Assembly (NCBI GenBank): GCA_012523465.1 | Contig: JAAYIK010000015.1 | Coordinates: 62,001-126,000, forward strand | Reading direction: 5' to 3' | Length of the DNA stretch: 64,000 bases | Origin: Lysobacteraceae bacterium | Lineage (GTDB): Bacteria > Pseudomonadota > Gammaproteobacteria > Nitrococcales > AK92 | Shown: piece after piece, positions 26,045 through 40,235 of the stretch | Layout of the letters: each line of letters opens with the position of its first letter | How positions within the stretch are numbered: the first letter of the stretch is position 1 | The notes under the pieces: model-generated | The model's input: the letters and a program-made list of their open reading frames with translations, nothing else | Told to the model about the DNA's origin: nothing | Database searches by the model: none | Position numbers and translations under genes: made by a program

Positions 26045-26605
26045 TCAGCCGACCGAGGCGCGTAGTCGCGCCCAGTCGAAATAGGGGCCGGGATCGGTTT
26101 TGCGTCCGGGCGCTATGTGGCAGTGACCGACGATGCGATCCGTGGTGATTGCAGGGTAGGCGCTGCGGAGGGCGCGGACGACGCCGATCAGGACGTCGTA
26201 CTGGCGGTCCGTATAGGGCAGGGTATCGCAGCCTTCCAGCTCGATGCCGATGGAGAAATCGTTGCAGGCGGTGCGCCCGCCCCAGCGGGACTCGCCGGCA
26301 TGCCAGGCGCGCCGGCTGAAGGGGACGTATTGGATGAGCTCGCCGTCGCGTCGGATGACGAGATGCGCCGAGACTTTGAGCCCGCGCAGGCCCTGAAAAT
26401 ACGGATGGGCGTCATGATCGAGGGTGTTGGTGAACAGCTGGTCGATGTAAGGACCGCCGAACTCGGCGGGCGGCAGACTGATGCCATGAATGACAAGCAG
26501 GTCCACGGGCGAGCCGCCCGAGCGGGCGTCGTGATTCGGGGACGGCCGCTGGTGTGCCTGAGGGATCAGCCCCTCGGGCAGTTCCACCGTAAAGCGCGTA
26601 TTCAT
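26045..26605 (-). CDS. ampD: 1,6-anhydro-N-acetylmuramyl-L-alanine amidase
   Basis: Cytosolic zinc amidase that removes the stem peptide from recycled anhydromuropeptides, lowering the AmpR inducer signal. The 186-residue product has no signal peptide and keeps the catalytic set of AmpD: His40 (VIHGIS), Glu121 (SIGIELEG), His160 (GHCHIAPGRKTDPG), Lys168 and Asp170, matching His34/Glu116/His154/Lys162/Asp164 of the Citrobacter enzyme. It lies 18 bp upstream of ampE. MltF, AmgK and MurU elsewhere in the window act in the same recycling route. Confidence 0.95.
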   Translation of the reverse strand: MNTRFTVELPEGLIPQAHQRPSPNHDARSGGSPVDLLVIHGISLPPAEFGGPYIDQLFTNTLDHDAHPYFQGLRGLKVSAHLVIRRDGELIQYVPFSRRAWHAGESRWGGRTACNDFSIGIELEGCDTLPYTDRQYDVLIGVVRALRSAYPAITTDRIVGHCHIAPGRKTDPGPYFDWARLRASVG

Positions 26606-32901: not shown

Positions 32902-35148
32902 TTACCTTTCGAAACGGTAGCCGGAGACGACTTCCTCGATGAAAGCATCCAGGCGCCTGCCGAGCGCGCCCAGGCCAGTGAATTCCAGCTGCACCATGAA
33001 GGACAGCGACGGATCGTCGTCATCGATGGAAGATATATGCTCGCGCACCAGGGTGCGCAGCGTCCAGCAGCAACTGCCATAGGCCAGGCCGACGAAGCGT
33101 TCCAGCCGCTTGCTGTCGAGCAGCGAGTAATGCACCCCGGCCAGTCCCAGCCAGCGGCTGCCAAGGGGCCAGACCCCGGTGAGCTCGATCTGTTCCAGCG
33201 GCGCGCCCTGGCCATCCACCCCGGCCTCGCGGTGGCGATAGGTCAGATGAACCGCCTTCCACTCGTCCGGACGATAGCTAAGTCGCAGCGAGCGGCGCAC
33301 GACCTCATCCTCGCGGGTATCGTAGCGCAGGTCGCCGTAGAGGGTGAGCGGTCCCAGGCTGACGCGCAGGTCGGCCAGCAGGTCGGACCTCGAGCGGCTG
33401 TCCTCCGGGATCGCCCTGCTGCCGATGCGCACCTTGCGCTCGGAGAAGTAAAAGGCGCGTCCAATGCCGGCCCGCAACAGCTCTCGTCCCGTGGAGCGGT
33501 CCAGCAGCCGGCTGTACACCGCCAGGCTCAGCTGGTTGGCATCGCCGATGCGGTCCGGGCCGGTGAAACGGTTCATCTCGAACAGCTGCGACAGGGTCAG
33601 CTCGGTGCGGGAGGTGTCGAACACCGGCAGCTCGCTTTGATCGCGGTAGGGCACGTACAGGTAGAACAGCCGCGGCTCCAGGGTCTGCAGCAGGCGCCGT
33701 CGGCCGAGGCTAAGGTCGCGTTCGAGGAAAATGCCGCCGTCGAGGCTGAACAGCGGCACGGTGCGATTCAGCGACTCTTCCGGGTGATTGCCGCTCAGCC
33801 GATCCGGATAGTCCAGCCAATAGCGGGTGTGGCTCAACGCCACGCTCGGCGTCACGAAATAGGCCAGGCGCTCATGGCGCAGGAAGGTGTGCAGCAGCAT
33901 GTCGCTGCGCAGGCCGGTGATGCGCTCCGAGGTGGGGTGGGCGAAGCGGGTGGCTTCGCCGGCGAGGTTGTAGTTGAAGGCGCCCGGATTGCTGGAGCGG
34001 TAGCTCGCCAGCAGCCGCGGCAGCACCCGGTAGGGTCGGCTGCGGGGCAGGATCTCGTCGTCCACGGTCTGCCAGCCCTGCACCTGGCCTTGCAGATGCC
34101 AGCCCCCGCTGCGATAGCCCAGCACCGCCTGGCTGCGCAGGTGCTGTTCGCTGGTGGTGGCCAGATCGTTGCCGAAGTCGTCCAGGTACTCGCTGTCGCT
34201 GACGCGGTTGTACTCGCCGTAGAAATAGGCATTGTTGCGCCAGCGGCTGCGCCAGTCCCAGCCCAGCTGCCAGCGGTCATCGCCGAAGCGGGAGTCGTTG
34301 GGCAGGTAATTGAAGCCAAGCTCGGTGGCGTAGCCGGGGCGCAGCAGGCGCGCCTCGGTCTCCAGCATCAGGCCGCGCCGGCTAAGCAGGCGCGGGGTCA
34401 ACGTCATGTCGTAGTTGGGCGCTAGATTGAGATAGTAGGGAGTCGCGACGTCCAGGCCGTTGCGGCCGCGGTAGCCGAGGCTGGGCGGCAGGAAGCCGGT
34501 CTTGCGCCTGTCATCGATGGGAAAGCTGATGTAGGGCGTGTACAGCAGCGGCACGCCGAAGAAGCGCAGCCAGGCATGGTGGGCGGTGCCGAAGCCCTCG
34601 GCGCGGTCCAGCTCCAGGCTGCGACTGTGCAGCCACCAATCCTCGTCGCCGGGCGGGCAGACGGTGTAGGAGACGTCGTCGTACTCGCTCACGCTTTCGC
34701 TGCGCAGGCGGGCCTGGCGGGCGCTGCCGTGAGTGGTGGGGCCGAATTGAAACTCCGCCGCGTTGAGCACGCCGCGGTCCTGATCCAGGTACAGATAGCC
34801 GTCGCTGGCCCGGATGTCGGCAGGCCCCTGACGGTAGCGGACGTTGCCGATGGCATCGGCCCGGCTGCTCGGCTCGTGGTAGCGCAGCTCGTCGGCTTGC
34901 AGCACGCGGCCGCCGCGCTCCATCACGACGTCGCCCTGGAAGATGTATGTCTGGCTGCGGCGATCGAGCTGGCCGCGGTCGGCGTCCACCGTCACCGGGC
35001 CATCCGGTTCGGCTGGCGCCTCTGAAGCCCCGAGCTCGCCCAGCAGCCTGGCTGGAGGCGGGCAGGCCATGAAGTCGGCGGTCGCCAGCGGTGCCGCGCC
35101 CAGAAGCGCAGCGGCCAGCGCAAGTCGTGACCATAGCGTCGCTTTCAC
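32902..35148 (-). CDS. lptD: LPS-assembly protein LptD
   Basis: Outer-membrane 26-stranded barrel that, with LptE, inserts LPS into the outer leaflet. The 748-residue product has a signal peptide, an OstA-type periplasmic beta-jellyroll (about 50-190; VTVDADRGQLDRRSQTYIFQGDVVMERGG) and a barrel domain. The four-cysteine pattern needed for the long-range disulphides is preserved: one Cys at 29, one near 163 (YTVCPPGDED) and an adjacent pair near the C-terminus (GSCCWTLRTLVRE). The start is GTG. It heads the lptD-surA-pdxA-ksgA unit and is divergent from amgK. Confidence 0.96.
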   Translation of the reverse strand: MKATLWSRLALAAALLGAAPLATADFMACPPPARLLGELGASEAPAEPDGPVTVDADRGQLDRRSQTYIFQGDVVMERGGRVLQADELRYHEPSSRADAIGNVRYRQGPADIRASDGYLYLDQDRGVLNAAEFQFGPTTHGSARQARLRSESVSEYDDVSYTVCPPGDEDWWLHSRSLELDRAEGFGTAHHAWLRFFGVPLLYTPYISFPIDDRRKTGFLPPSLGYRGRNGLDVATPYYLNLAPNYDMTLTPRLLSRRGLMLETEARLLRPGYATELGFNYLPNDSRFGDDRWQLGWDWRSRWRNNAYFYGEYNRVSDSEYLDDFGNDLATTSEQHLRSQAVLGYRSGGWHLQGQVQGWQTVDDEILPRSRPYRVLPRLLASYRSSNPGAFNYNLAGEATRFAHPTSERITGLRSDMLLHTFLRHERLAYFVTPSVALSHTRYWLDYPDRLSGNHPEESLNRTVPLFSLDGGIFLERDLSLGRRRLLQTLEPRLFYLYVPYRDQSELPVFDTSRTELTLSQLFEMNRFTGPDRIGDANQLSLAVYSRLLDRSTGRELLRAGIGRAFYFSERKVRIGSRAIPEDSRSRSDLLADLRVSLGPLTLYGDLRYDTREDEVVRRSLRLSYRPDEWKAVHLTYRHREAGVDGQGAPLEQIELTGVWPLGSRWLGLAGVHYSLLDSKRLERFVGLAYGSCCWTLRTLVREHISSIDDDDPSLSFMVQLEFTGLGALGRRLDAFIEEVVSGYRFER

Positions 35149-35190
35149 CGTAACCAGATCCTGCCCCTTCCTGCGGCGGCCGATACGATG

Positions 35191-35219
35191 TCATAGAAGC
35201 CCGCAATGGGGCAAACTCC
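35191..35219 (-). promoter_or_regulatory. SigmaE-like promoter candidate for lptD-surA
   Basis: On the minus strand GGAGTTT (35213-35219) and TCTATGA (35191-35197) are separated by 15 bp, resembling the envelope-stress sigma factor pattern (GGAACTT-N15/16-TCTGA). lptD and surA belong to the sigmaE regulon in E. coli. The match is partial. Confidence 0.25.
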
Positions 35220-35233
35220 CCGTGTCGCCCATT

Positions 35234-35239
35234 TATAAT
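35234..35239 (+). promoter_or_regulatory. Consensus -10 box upstream of amgK
   Basis: A perfect TATAAT stands 52 bp before the amgK start. I do not see a good -35 at 16-18 bp, so it may need an activator or may be coincidental in this A/T-rich patch. Confidence 0.35.
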
Positions 35240-35291
35240 GCACGTCGGCCTAGCCGCGCCCATCCATCAACCGTATAGAGAATGACAAGCT

Positions 35292-36996
<1,705 letters not shown>

Positions 36997-37005
36997 CGCA
37001 AGGAC

Positions 37006-38439
37006 ATGGGCAAAGATATCAGCAACATCAAATTCACCCGCGAGGATTTCCAGGCCTTCGCGGCGCGCCTGAAAAGCGAGACTGAGCTGCTCAAACGCTG
37101 GCGGGACGAGGGCCGGCTGGCCAGCGATCCGCCCAGGATCGGGCTGGAACTAGAAATCTGGCTGGTCGACGAGGCCGGCCGCCCGGCGCCGTGCAACACC
37201 GCGGTCCTAGCCCAGGCCCAAGAGCCGTTGCTGACGCTGGAGTTGGCGCAGTACAACCTGGAGCTCAACACCACTCCGCAGCCGCTGGCCGGTCAGCCTT
37301 TCACCGCCCTGCGGCAAGAGCTGGAGCAGGTCTGGCAGCGCGTGGCCGCCGCCGCGGCGCGGCAGCAGGCGCGGCTCGCCATGATCGGCATCCTGCCCAG
37401 CGCACGCCAGGAAGATCTTAGCCTGGCGCGCATGTCGCCGCTTAACCGCTACCAGGCACTCAACGAGCAGGTGTTGCTGCTGCGCAACCAAAGGCCGCTG
37501 CAGCTGGACATCCAGGGCGTCGAGCGACTGACCCTGAGCCATGCCGACGTCATGCTGGAGTCGGCCGCCACCTCGCTGCAGCTGCATCTGCAGGTCAGCC
37601 CGCAGAACGCCGCGCGGCTGTTCAATGCCGCTGTTATGGCTTCTGCGGCCACCGTGGCGGCCGCCGCCAACTCGCCGTTTTTGTTCGGCCGCCGGCTGTG
37701 GGAAGAGACCCGCATCCCCTTGTTCGAACAGGCTGTGGCGGTGACGCCGCCCCACGGCGGCCATCCCGGCCCCTTCGGCCGGGTGAGCTTCGGCAGCGGC
37801 TACGGGCGCGATGCGCTGTACGGCTTCTTCGTCGAGAACCGCCAGCACTTCCCGGTGCTGCTGCCGGTGCTGCTGGACGAGCCGGAGGAGCGGCTGCCGC
37901 ACCTGTGCCTGCACAACGGTACTATCTGGCGCTGGAACCGGCCGCTGGTTGGCTTCGGCGACGACGGCCGGCCGCATCTGCGCATCGAGCACCGCGTGAT
38001 GGCGGCTGGCCCGACGCTGGCCGACATCGTCGCCAACGCGGCATTCTTCTATGGCCTGGCGCATGGCCTGGCCGAGAGCGAGCAGGGGCCCGACAGCCGC
38101 TTGCCCTTCGTGCAGGCAGAGCGCAATTTCTATGCTGCGGCTCGCCATGGCCTGGCGGCAGAGGTAAGCTGGCTGGGCAGCAGTCAGGGGCGGCTGGATC
38201 AGCTCATTCTCAACCGCTTGCTGCCATTGGCGGCGCGTGGGCTGCAGCTGGCCGGGGTGGACGATCCCGAAGCCCGTGCCGGACTGGCGATCATCGAGCA
38301 GCGGGTCGGCACCGGTCGCACCGGGGCCGCCTGGCAGCGGGCTTTCATCGAACGGTACGGGCGCGATTTCGATGCCCTGGTCAACGCCTATCTGGAACGC
38401 CAGCAATCGGGCGAGCCGGTGCATCGCTGGTCGCTGTAG
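37006..38439 (+). CDS. GCS2-like carboxylate-amine ligase (glutamate-cysteine ligase superfamily)
   Basis: A 477-residue protein of the glutamate-cysteine-ligase type 2 fold, which makes gamma-glutamyl or other amide bonds using ATP. Seen directly: GLELEIWLVD at 46-55, typical of the first metal/ATP strand, NLELNTTPQPL near 85-95, and EHRVMAAGPTLADIVANAAFFYG near 330-352. Clear GshA features and a GshB partner are missing, so glutathione synthesis is unlikely. It begins 9 bp after murU and is followed after 31 bp by an M14-like deacylase, so the four genes look like one operon. The true amine and acid substrates are unknown. Confidence 0.7.
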   Translation: MGKDISNIKFTREDFQAFAARLKSETELLKRWRDEGRLASDPPRIGLELEIWLVDEAGRPAPCNTAVLAQAQEPLLTLELAQYNLELNTTPQPLAGQPFTALRQELEQVWQRVAAAAARQQARLAMIGILPSARQEDLSLARMSPLNRYQALNEQVLLLRNQRPLQLDIQGVERLTLSHADVMLESAATSLQLHLQVSPQNAARLFNAAVMASAATVAAAANSPFLFGRRLWEETRIPLFEQAVAVTPPHGGHPGPFGRVSFGSGYGRDALYGFFVENRQHFPVLLPVLLDEPEERLPHLCLHNGTIWRWNRPLVGFGDDGRPHLRIEHRVMAAGPTLADIVANAAFFYGLAHGLAESEQGPDSRLPFVQAERNFYAAARHGLAAEVSWLGSSQGRLDQLILNRLLPLAARGLQLAGVDDPEARAGLAIIEQRVGTGRTGAAWQRAFIERYGRDFDALVNAYLERQQSGEPVHRWSL

Positions 38440-38470
38440 CCGGGCCGGCCAAACAAGCTGGGGCACGAGC

Positions 38471-39481
38471 ATGCTGAAGCAATACACCGACCTGCCAAGA
38501 GGGTTCCTGGACGCCAGTGCGGCCGAGCTGGAGCGAATCCTGGGCGGCCCCAGCCTGATCCATTTGCCGGGACTGCGCGATCGGCCGCTGTTCGTCTCCA
38601 TCCTGCTGCACGGTAACGAGACCTCCGGCCTGACCGCGCTGCAGGAGTTCCTGCGCACGCGCCTAGACCGTCCTTTGCCGCGGGCGCTGTCGCTGTTCGT
38701 CGGCAACGTGGCGGCAGCACGGGCCGGGGTGCGAACCTTACCCGGACAGCCCGACTACAACCGGATCTGGCCGGGCGGCGAGGACAGCGCCAGCCCGGAA
38801 GCCAGGATGCTGGCCCTGGTCGTCGACCAGATGCGCCAGCGGCGTGTCTTCGCTAGCATCGACATCCACAACAACAGCGGCCCCAATCCTCACTACAGCT
38901 GCATCAGCCGGGTTGATGGCCGCCACCTCTACCTGGCCTCGCTGTTCAGCCCGACAGTGGTGCATTTCACTCGGCCGCGCGGCGTGCAGGTGGCGGCCTT
39001 CGCCGAGCTTTGCCCCGCCGTCACCATCGAATGCGGCCAGCCGGGCGATCGCTACGGCATCGAGCATGCGCGCGAGCTGGTGGAAGCGGCGCTGCATCTG
39101 GGCAAGATCCCCGACCACCCGGCCAGCGAGGTCAGCCTGTTCCGCACCGTGGCGCGGGTCTTGCTGCCGGCCGACGTCACCTTCGGCTACGGCGACGAGG
39201 CGGTGGAGCTGCAGCTCATGGACGATCTGGCGCAGTTCAATTTCCGCGAGCTGCCCGTCGGCACCATCTTTGCGCGCGTCCGTGGCCAGCGGGAGGTGAA
39301 CTTCGTCGTCGAGGACCAGCAGGGCAGGGATGTCGCCGCCGACTATTTCGAGCTGGTCGACGGCGAGCTGCGCACCCGGCGTCCGGTCATGCCGGCGATG
39401 CTGACCACCAATCCGGCCATCGTTCGCCAGGACTGCCTGTGCTACCTAATGGAGGGCCTGCCAACGCCAGCCGACGGCTAA
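38471..39481 (+). CDS. Succinylglutamate desuccinylase/aspartoacylase-family zinc deacylase
   Basis: A 336-residue M14-like hydrolase. It has the zinc ligands His47 and Glu50 in LLHGNETSG, His133 in DIHNNSG, substrate-binding Asn97-Arg98 in NRIWPG, and the catalytic Glu187 in VTIECGQPG. These enzymes cleave N-acyl amino acids or related amides. It lacks an arginine-catabolism context (no astA-D), so a true AstE role is unlikely. The ATG at 38471 is preceded by weak SD-like GGGGC; longer readings enter the ligase gene. The pairing with the upstream ligase suggests opposing or sequential action on one amide. Confidence 0.75.
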   Translation: MLKQYTDLPRGFLDASAAELERILGGPSLIHLPGLRDRPLFVSILLHGNETSGLTALQEFLRTRLDRPLPRALSLFVGNVAAARAGVRTLPGQPDYNRIWPGGEDSASPEARMLALVVDQMRQRRVFASIDIHNNSGPNPHYSCISRVDGRHLYLASLFSPTVVHFTRPRGVQVAAFAELCPAVTIECGQPGDRYGIEHARELVEAALHLGKIPDHPASEVSLFRTVARVLLPADVTFGYGDEAVELQLMDDLAQFNFRELPVGTIFARVRGQREVNFVVEDQQGRDVAADYFELVDGELRTRRPVMPAMLTTNPAIVRQDCLCYLMEGLPTPADG

Positions 39482-39494
39482 GGCCGCGGAGCGG

Positions 39495-40235
39495 CTAGAT
39501 CCCGTAGCGCCAGCGATACCACCAGCCAGCCAGCAGCTCGCGCAGGGCGGCGCAGCTTTCGTGGAAGGTGTCGGGGTTGGGGGTGAAGGCGTAAAGGCTG
39601 ATGCTGGGCGCGGTGTAGACGGTGGGGGCCGGGACGACCTCGAAGCCGGCATGCTGGAACACCCGCACTGATCGCCGCATGTGGATGGTTTCGGTCACCA
39701 GGATGATGCGGCGTATGCCCAGCGGCTCCAGCAGCTCCGCGGCCAGCGTCCCGTTCTCGTAGGTGTTGCGGCTGCGCTGCTCGTGGGCTAGCACCGGCAC
39801 GCCGAACTCGTCGGCCAGCACATCCCGCATCATGATCCCGAGCGGCGTGCCCCTGCCATTGGGGGCGCCGCCCACCGGCACCACCGGCAGGCCGGTCCAG
39901 CGGTGGACCCAGGCTGCGTAGCGCAGCCGCAGCAAGGTGGAAGCGCTGACGGTGTCGCCGCCGTAGTCGGGCGCGTCCAGCGCGCGGGCGCCGCCCAGCA
40001 CCACGATGACCTGCGCCTCGGCGGCGCGGGCCGCCTCGGGAGTCAGCGGTGGCTGCCACTGCAGGCTGCGGACGAGCGGCCAGCTCGGCAGCGGCGCGCT
40101 GAGGCCGTAGAGCAGCAGCAGGCCGAGCGCGAGCAGGAGGCGGGCGGCCCGGCGGCGCCACCACAGCAGCGCCGCTAGCCCCAGCAGCAGGAGCAGGCCG
40201 GGAGGGAGGAGGAGCTTTTCGACCAGGCCGCTCAT
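39495..40235 (-). CDS. ElyC/YdcF-family (DUF218) envelope protein
   Basis: A 246-residue membrane protein with two N-terminal hydrophobic segments (about 8-25 and 31-48) and a DUF218 domain: [64 protein letters not shown] and [28 protein letters not shown]. coli ElyC of this family acts in peptidoglycan assembly and undecaprenyl-phosphate use. It overlaps lipA by 4 bp, so it ends a lipB-lipA-elyC unit. Confidence 0.85.

Follow-up and report, generated by a model that had tools for sequence, protein, structure and literature searches.

A divergent carboxylate-amine ligase of the GCS2 type and an M14-like zinc deacylase, encoded next to each other behind the murein-salvage genes amgK and murU, form a genuine functional pair, as supported by their co-occurrence, their adjacency and three fusions. 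The two enzymes probably constitute one cytosolic module that makes and cleaves, or ligates and then deprotects, a small N-acyl amino acid. Both genes lie in the window, by which we mean the whole analysed stretch of 64,000 nucleotides, within a draft genome of 3.0 Mb that has the Ectothiorhodospiraceae as its nearest named relatives. They close a run of four co-directional genes, whose features are as follows.

35149..35291, no strand: intergenic region between the divergent lptD and amgK, putative place of the operon promoter
36316..36996, plus strand: murU, MurNAc-1-phosphate uridylyltransferase; 8-bp overlap with amgK
35292..36323, plus strand: amgK, N-acetylmuramate/N-acetylglucosamine kinase; GTG start, first gene in the run
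37006..38439, plus strand: GCS2-type carboxylate-amine ligase, 477 amino acids; 9-bp gap after murU
38471..39481, plus strand: M14 AstE/AspA-like zinc deacylase, 336 amino acids; 31-bp gap after the ligase

Coordinates, strand, the overlap and both gaps are those given by an initial annotation of this DNA. The run (35292-39481) is flanked by the divergent lptD, starting at 35148, and by a convergent DUF218 gene (39495-40235). Judged from the gene orientations, the lptD-amgK intergenic region is the likely place of the operon promoter; a search for sigma-70-like sites across 35100-39650, this region included, gave no match. Nor was any promoter-like site found within the amgK-murU-ligase-deacylase run, and its sole terminator-like match falls inside the GCS2 gene. 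Neither kind of match falls in the gap between murU and the ligase. Terminator-like matches in the region are fewer than in shuffles, and no RNA families were found at the locus. Of the 30 ligase-bearing genomes in the order to which the window genome belongs, 23 show these four genes in the same arrangement, which argues that the run is more than chance. In profile searches AmgK matched Pfam APH with 125 bits and NCBIfam NF045759 with 301 bits, under the cut-off of 550, and MurU scored 318 bits with NF045761, over the cut-off of 250. Across most of the order, amgK adjoins murU.

The pairing itself was followed through 369 genomes drawn evenly from the class. The ligase is found in 133 (135 are listed, and the count excludes two genomes whose match is just a fragment of some 30 residues), the deacylase in 130 and both in 126 (Fisher p=4e-84, uncorrected for phylogeny). 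The two genes are adjacent and on the same strand, with M14 downstream, in 113, mostly with gaps of less than 100 bp. Single reading frames of 808-845 amino acids carry both domains, ligase first, at L061/L084, L104 and L257/L260. These fused proteins occupy three places on the ligase tree, with three changes of state, and are read as three separate fusions. Such fusion and linkage establish that the two enzymes are functionally coupled, but not that they share a substrate. The ligase can also do without M14, since about seven genomes of the class carry it with no detected M14 gene and since its full-length relatives in Actinobacteria, at 36-42% identity (Streptomyces L274:7001-8479, Nonomuraea L275:7001-8461, Tsukamurella L276:7001-8506), lack an M14 relative within 7 kb. 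In Streptomyces and Tsukamurella the annotated neighbours of the ligase are unrelated.

Related loci vary in their surroundings. At L061:8001-12853 the fused ligase-deacylase is followed by a TPR/Cds6_C protein and then by a Cds6_C-bearing YkuD L,D-transpeptidase, and genes belonging to the clusters of these two proteins follow the unfused pair at L055 and L057. A protein of about 361 amino acids (L068:3224-4309 and relatives), with no match in Pfam or NCBIfam, is encoded directly downstream of M14 on the same strand at several gammaproteobacterial loci. In a genome of the same genus (L037, G002), amgK-murU-ligase are directly followed by the convergent DUF218 gene, and no M14 was found downstream. 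The ligase gene of Alkalilimnicola ehrlichii AK92 (L006, G001:C11; L089) is split across frames, with a stop reported in the frame of the first piece, which points to a pseudogene or to errors of assembly; at this locus, murU and M14 are covered nearly end to end.

The ligase is a divergent, long GCS2 subfamily. Its score with Pfam GCS2 (PF04107) is weak, 33.6 bits at a cut-off of 21, and stays far under the cut-offs for YbdK (TIGR02050; 36.4 bits against 176.4) and for the other NCBIfam GCS2 equivalogs (21-36 bits against 332-437). A Foldseek search with its AlphaFold2 model (pLDDT 86.7) places it in the GCS2 fold, the best match being YbdK (1r8g; E=4e-15, TM 0.6/0.8). The search also retrieved 1tt4, the plant glutamate-cysteine ligase 2gwc (E=2e-10), yeast and bacterial glutamate-cysteine ligases and, as distant kin, Dop and PafA. 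PMC2588565 describes as superfamily motifs GhExE, an acidic residue on the strand that follows, [HQ]x[NH], Ex[RK] and a pair of arginines. The first corresponds to G46-L-E48-L-E50, with G, E and E in 127/127 aligned sequences, the acidic residue to E86, invariant in the 127, and [HQ]x[NH] to Q192-L-H194 on a predicted strand, with Q and H in 127/127. E328 and R330 of Ex[RK] are likewise found in 127/127, while the arginines are R236, invariant, and R309, present in 126. The final Asp of Ex[RK]x2D is Ala in the window ligase and its relatives of the order, or Ser/Pro in some. The ligase shares with YbdK the fold, GhExE and other superfamily motifs, but it is about 100 amino acids longer, is 16% identical to 1r8g when the structures are aligned and is linked to M14 and murU.

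Similarly, the plant-type glutamate-cysteine ligase 2gwc has the same fold but only 18% identity, and in the window genome other genes serve glutathione: an E. coli-type gshA (PF04262, 554 bits) on contig C25 and gshB (TIGR01380, 444 bits) on C19. Because these dedicated genes exist, the ligase is unneeded for glutathione, and this gives better grounds for considering glutathione synthesis unlikely than the absence of partner genes nearby, on which the initial annotation had relied. A search for a PF08886-type GshA gave no match in the genome, but its control was also silent.

The deacylase matches PF24827 (AstE_AspA_cat) with 35.9 bits at a cut-off of 25. Foldseek with its AlphaFold2 model (pLDDT 88.6) retrieves AstE first (1yw6, E=1.7e-13) and then AspA (2gu2); CCP5 also matched, and the murein tripeptide amidase MpaA, another M14 enzyme, is a distant fold relative with a much weaker match (E=1e-5). 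Recognizing the kinship of both proteins needed profiles and folds, since PDB sequence searches left the ligase with no match and the deacylase with no convincing homologue. The zinc and catalytic set that the initial annotation had described as intact (His47, Glu50, His133, Glu187) is indeed present in 114/114 aligned sequences, as in enzymes of the AstE/AspA type. Equally conserved (114/114) are R88, N97 and R98, which align with AstE residues and which, from what is known of AspA, we take to bind the substrate carboxylate. The deacylase therefore has the fold, the zinc ligands, the catalytic Glu and the putative carboxylate-binding Arg/Asn/Arg in common with AstE and AspA but, unlike AstE, is paired with a ligase in a locus without arginine catabolism context. 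A canonical AstE of arginine succinyltransferase catabolism was rejected on this context and on a score of 18.7 bits, far under the equivalog cut-off of 170, in agreement with the earlier view that arginine catabolism is unlikely.

Following superfamily precedent, the GCS2-type ligase would phosphorylate a carboxylate with ATP and join it to an amine to form an amide; by analogy with its family, this would be the gamma-carboxylate of glutamate or of a related acid. The M14 zinc enzyme would hydrolyse an N-acyl amino acid amide, with the free alpha-carboxylate held by R88, N97 and R98. Both would work on the same small metabolite, which might be made and unmade, or ligated and then relieved of its N-acyl group. 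Given the co-occurrence, adjacency and fusion, it is simplest to suppose that the two enzymes catalyse successive or opposite steps on a single small molecule; their activities, the shared substrate and the direction are inferred. Both proteins are taken as cytosolic, since no obvious N-terminal signal sequence can be read in either.

The association of an amide-forming ligase with an amide-cleaving enzyme has parallels: PMC2588565 describes ligase families adjoining a glutamine amidotransferase-like peptidase or a gamma-glutamyl cyclotransferase, although the partner there is not M14. The window genome also contains a second GCS2 ligase, a YbdK-family protein of 391 amino acids encoded downstream of an M20 peptidase/aminoacylase gene, at a distance of 3 bp (L001:1171-3510, G000:C27, minus strand). 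This shows a second instance of the ligase-hydrolase theme in the same genome.

It may be that the pair belongs to a branch of peptidoglycan recycling, a suggestion we make tentatively, in which an amide on a wall-derived acid or peptide is made, removed or cleared in step with AmgK-MurU; a gamma-glutamyl peptide, or the N-acyl-L-Ala amide of leftover MurNAc-L-Ala, are examples of such substrates. Within the order, murU lies directly upstream of the ligase in 26 of the 28 genomes with room for it, which means that the pair is not mostly away from amgK-murU there. The link noted in the initial annotation thus stands for the order, but class-wide it holds for only 58 of the 118 loci with room, amgK being usually close by. 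The wall reading is weakened by those pairs, about half of all in the class, that have no murU nearby; for these, no widespread partner was found beyond small lineage groups. Still, murU is the sole recurrent neighbour of the pair, and the link persists as the upstream context varies: Chromatiales and allied symbionts have the arrangement trx-rho-murU-ligase-deacylase, and their amgK lies elsewhere or was not seen. An assignment of these neighbours as murA and bolA was rejected, as they are rho and thioredoxin. Also in favour of a wall-derived substrate, two genomes of a single family, in which no ligase was found, have the deacylase gene immediately after murU, and an L,D-transpeptidase (YkuD) gene stands beside some pairs. 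The linkage can nevertheless be inherited gene order, since the murU-link label changes 18 times on the ligase tree against 33-43 times for shuffled labels; the link follows descent, yet changed often.

Across the class, murU was detected in 125/133 ligase genomes versus 198/236 others (Fisher p=0.005, uncorrected for phylogeny). The eight ligase-bearing genomes without murU at E<=1e-30 (hand count; four of them at least 90% complete) count against a strict wall role, as does the occurrence of murU in 323/369 genomes, most of which lack the pair. Mpl is likewise found in most genomes without the pair. Together with the pairs that have no nearby murU and the actinobacterial ligases that have no nearby deacylase, these distributions do not uphold a dependence on MurNAc salvage. 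Also against a wall role, MpaA, the M14 enzyme of murein peptides, matches the deacylase fold far less well than AstE. In favour of such a role, the genome contains Mpl, AnmK (on C27) and AmpD, the last of which lies in the window as the initial annotation had indicated (about 26084-26515, minus strand). With all three present, ordinary MurNAc and peptide salvage looks complete without the pair. The ligase as a replacement for Mpl was disfavoured, as Mpl is present on C3 (682 bits) and in most other genomes. For the earlier proposal that the pair acts on recycled wall material, the widespread murU link is supported and a dependence on salvage is not; such a role is possible. Given murU, a wall-derived substrate is a fair guess. 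That the pair is an undescribed branch of wall recycling, adding and removing an amide on wall-derived material near the point where UDP-MurNAc is remade, we consider rather unlikely; such a branch would be common in gammaproteobacteria, for example in sulphur, methane and ammonia oxidisers.

A biosynthetic role may be envisaged with similar caution. Here the ligase would couple an N-acylated amino acid to an amine and the M14 enzyme would strip the protecting acyl group, yielding a solute, a cofactor part or a secondary metabolite. Enzymes of the AspA and AstE kind take off acetyl or succinyl groups, the three separate fusions would suit successive steps, and the ligase comes first both in the gene order and in the fused proteins, but no gene for an acyl-donor step recurs beside the pair.

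Improbable, in our view, is that the pair attaches an amino acid to a protein and takes it off again, as PafA and Dop do with Pup or as do the tubulin glutamylases and carboxypeptidases. That the ligase is distantly related in fold to Dop and PafA, and that deglutamylases such as CCP5 exist among M14 enzymes, would fit, but the ligase fold is nearest to small-molecule ligases, and neither a conserved small ORF nor a target gene was seen to recur next to the two genes. It is very improbable that the ligase makes gamma-glutamylcysteine for glutathione or a related thiol, in spite of the GCS2 fold and of the gamma-glutamyl:cysteine ligase activity reported for YbdK in a work cited by PMC2588565, given the dedicated gshA and gshB in the same genome and no recurrent thiol genes beside the pair save the thioredoxin next to rho.

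Both kinds of enzyme are known, and PMC2588565 already points out ligases beside amide-cleaving enzymes. The literature searched gave no account of this ligase subfamily, its M14 partner or the fusions, which is weak evidence of novelty as subscription journals were mostly outside the search. A module that is kept by about a third of a large class and fused in three branches very probably has one defined task. Knowing its substrate would put a name to a metabolite that maps of these bacteria still lack, and the link to murU offers a first place to look for it.
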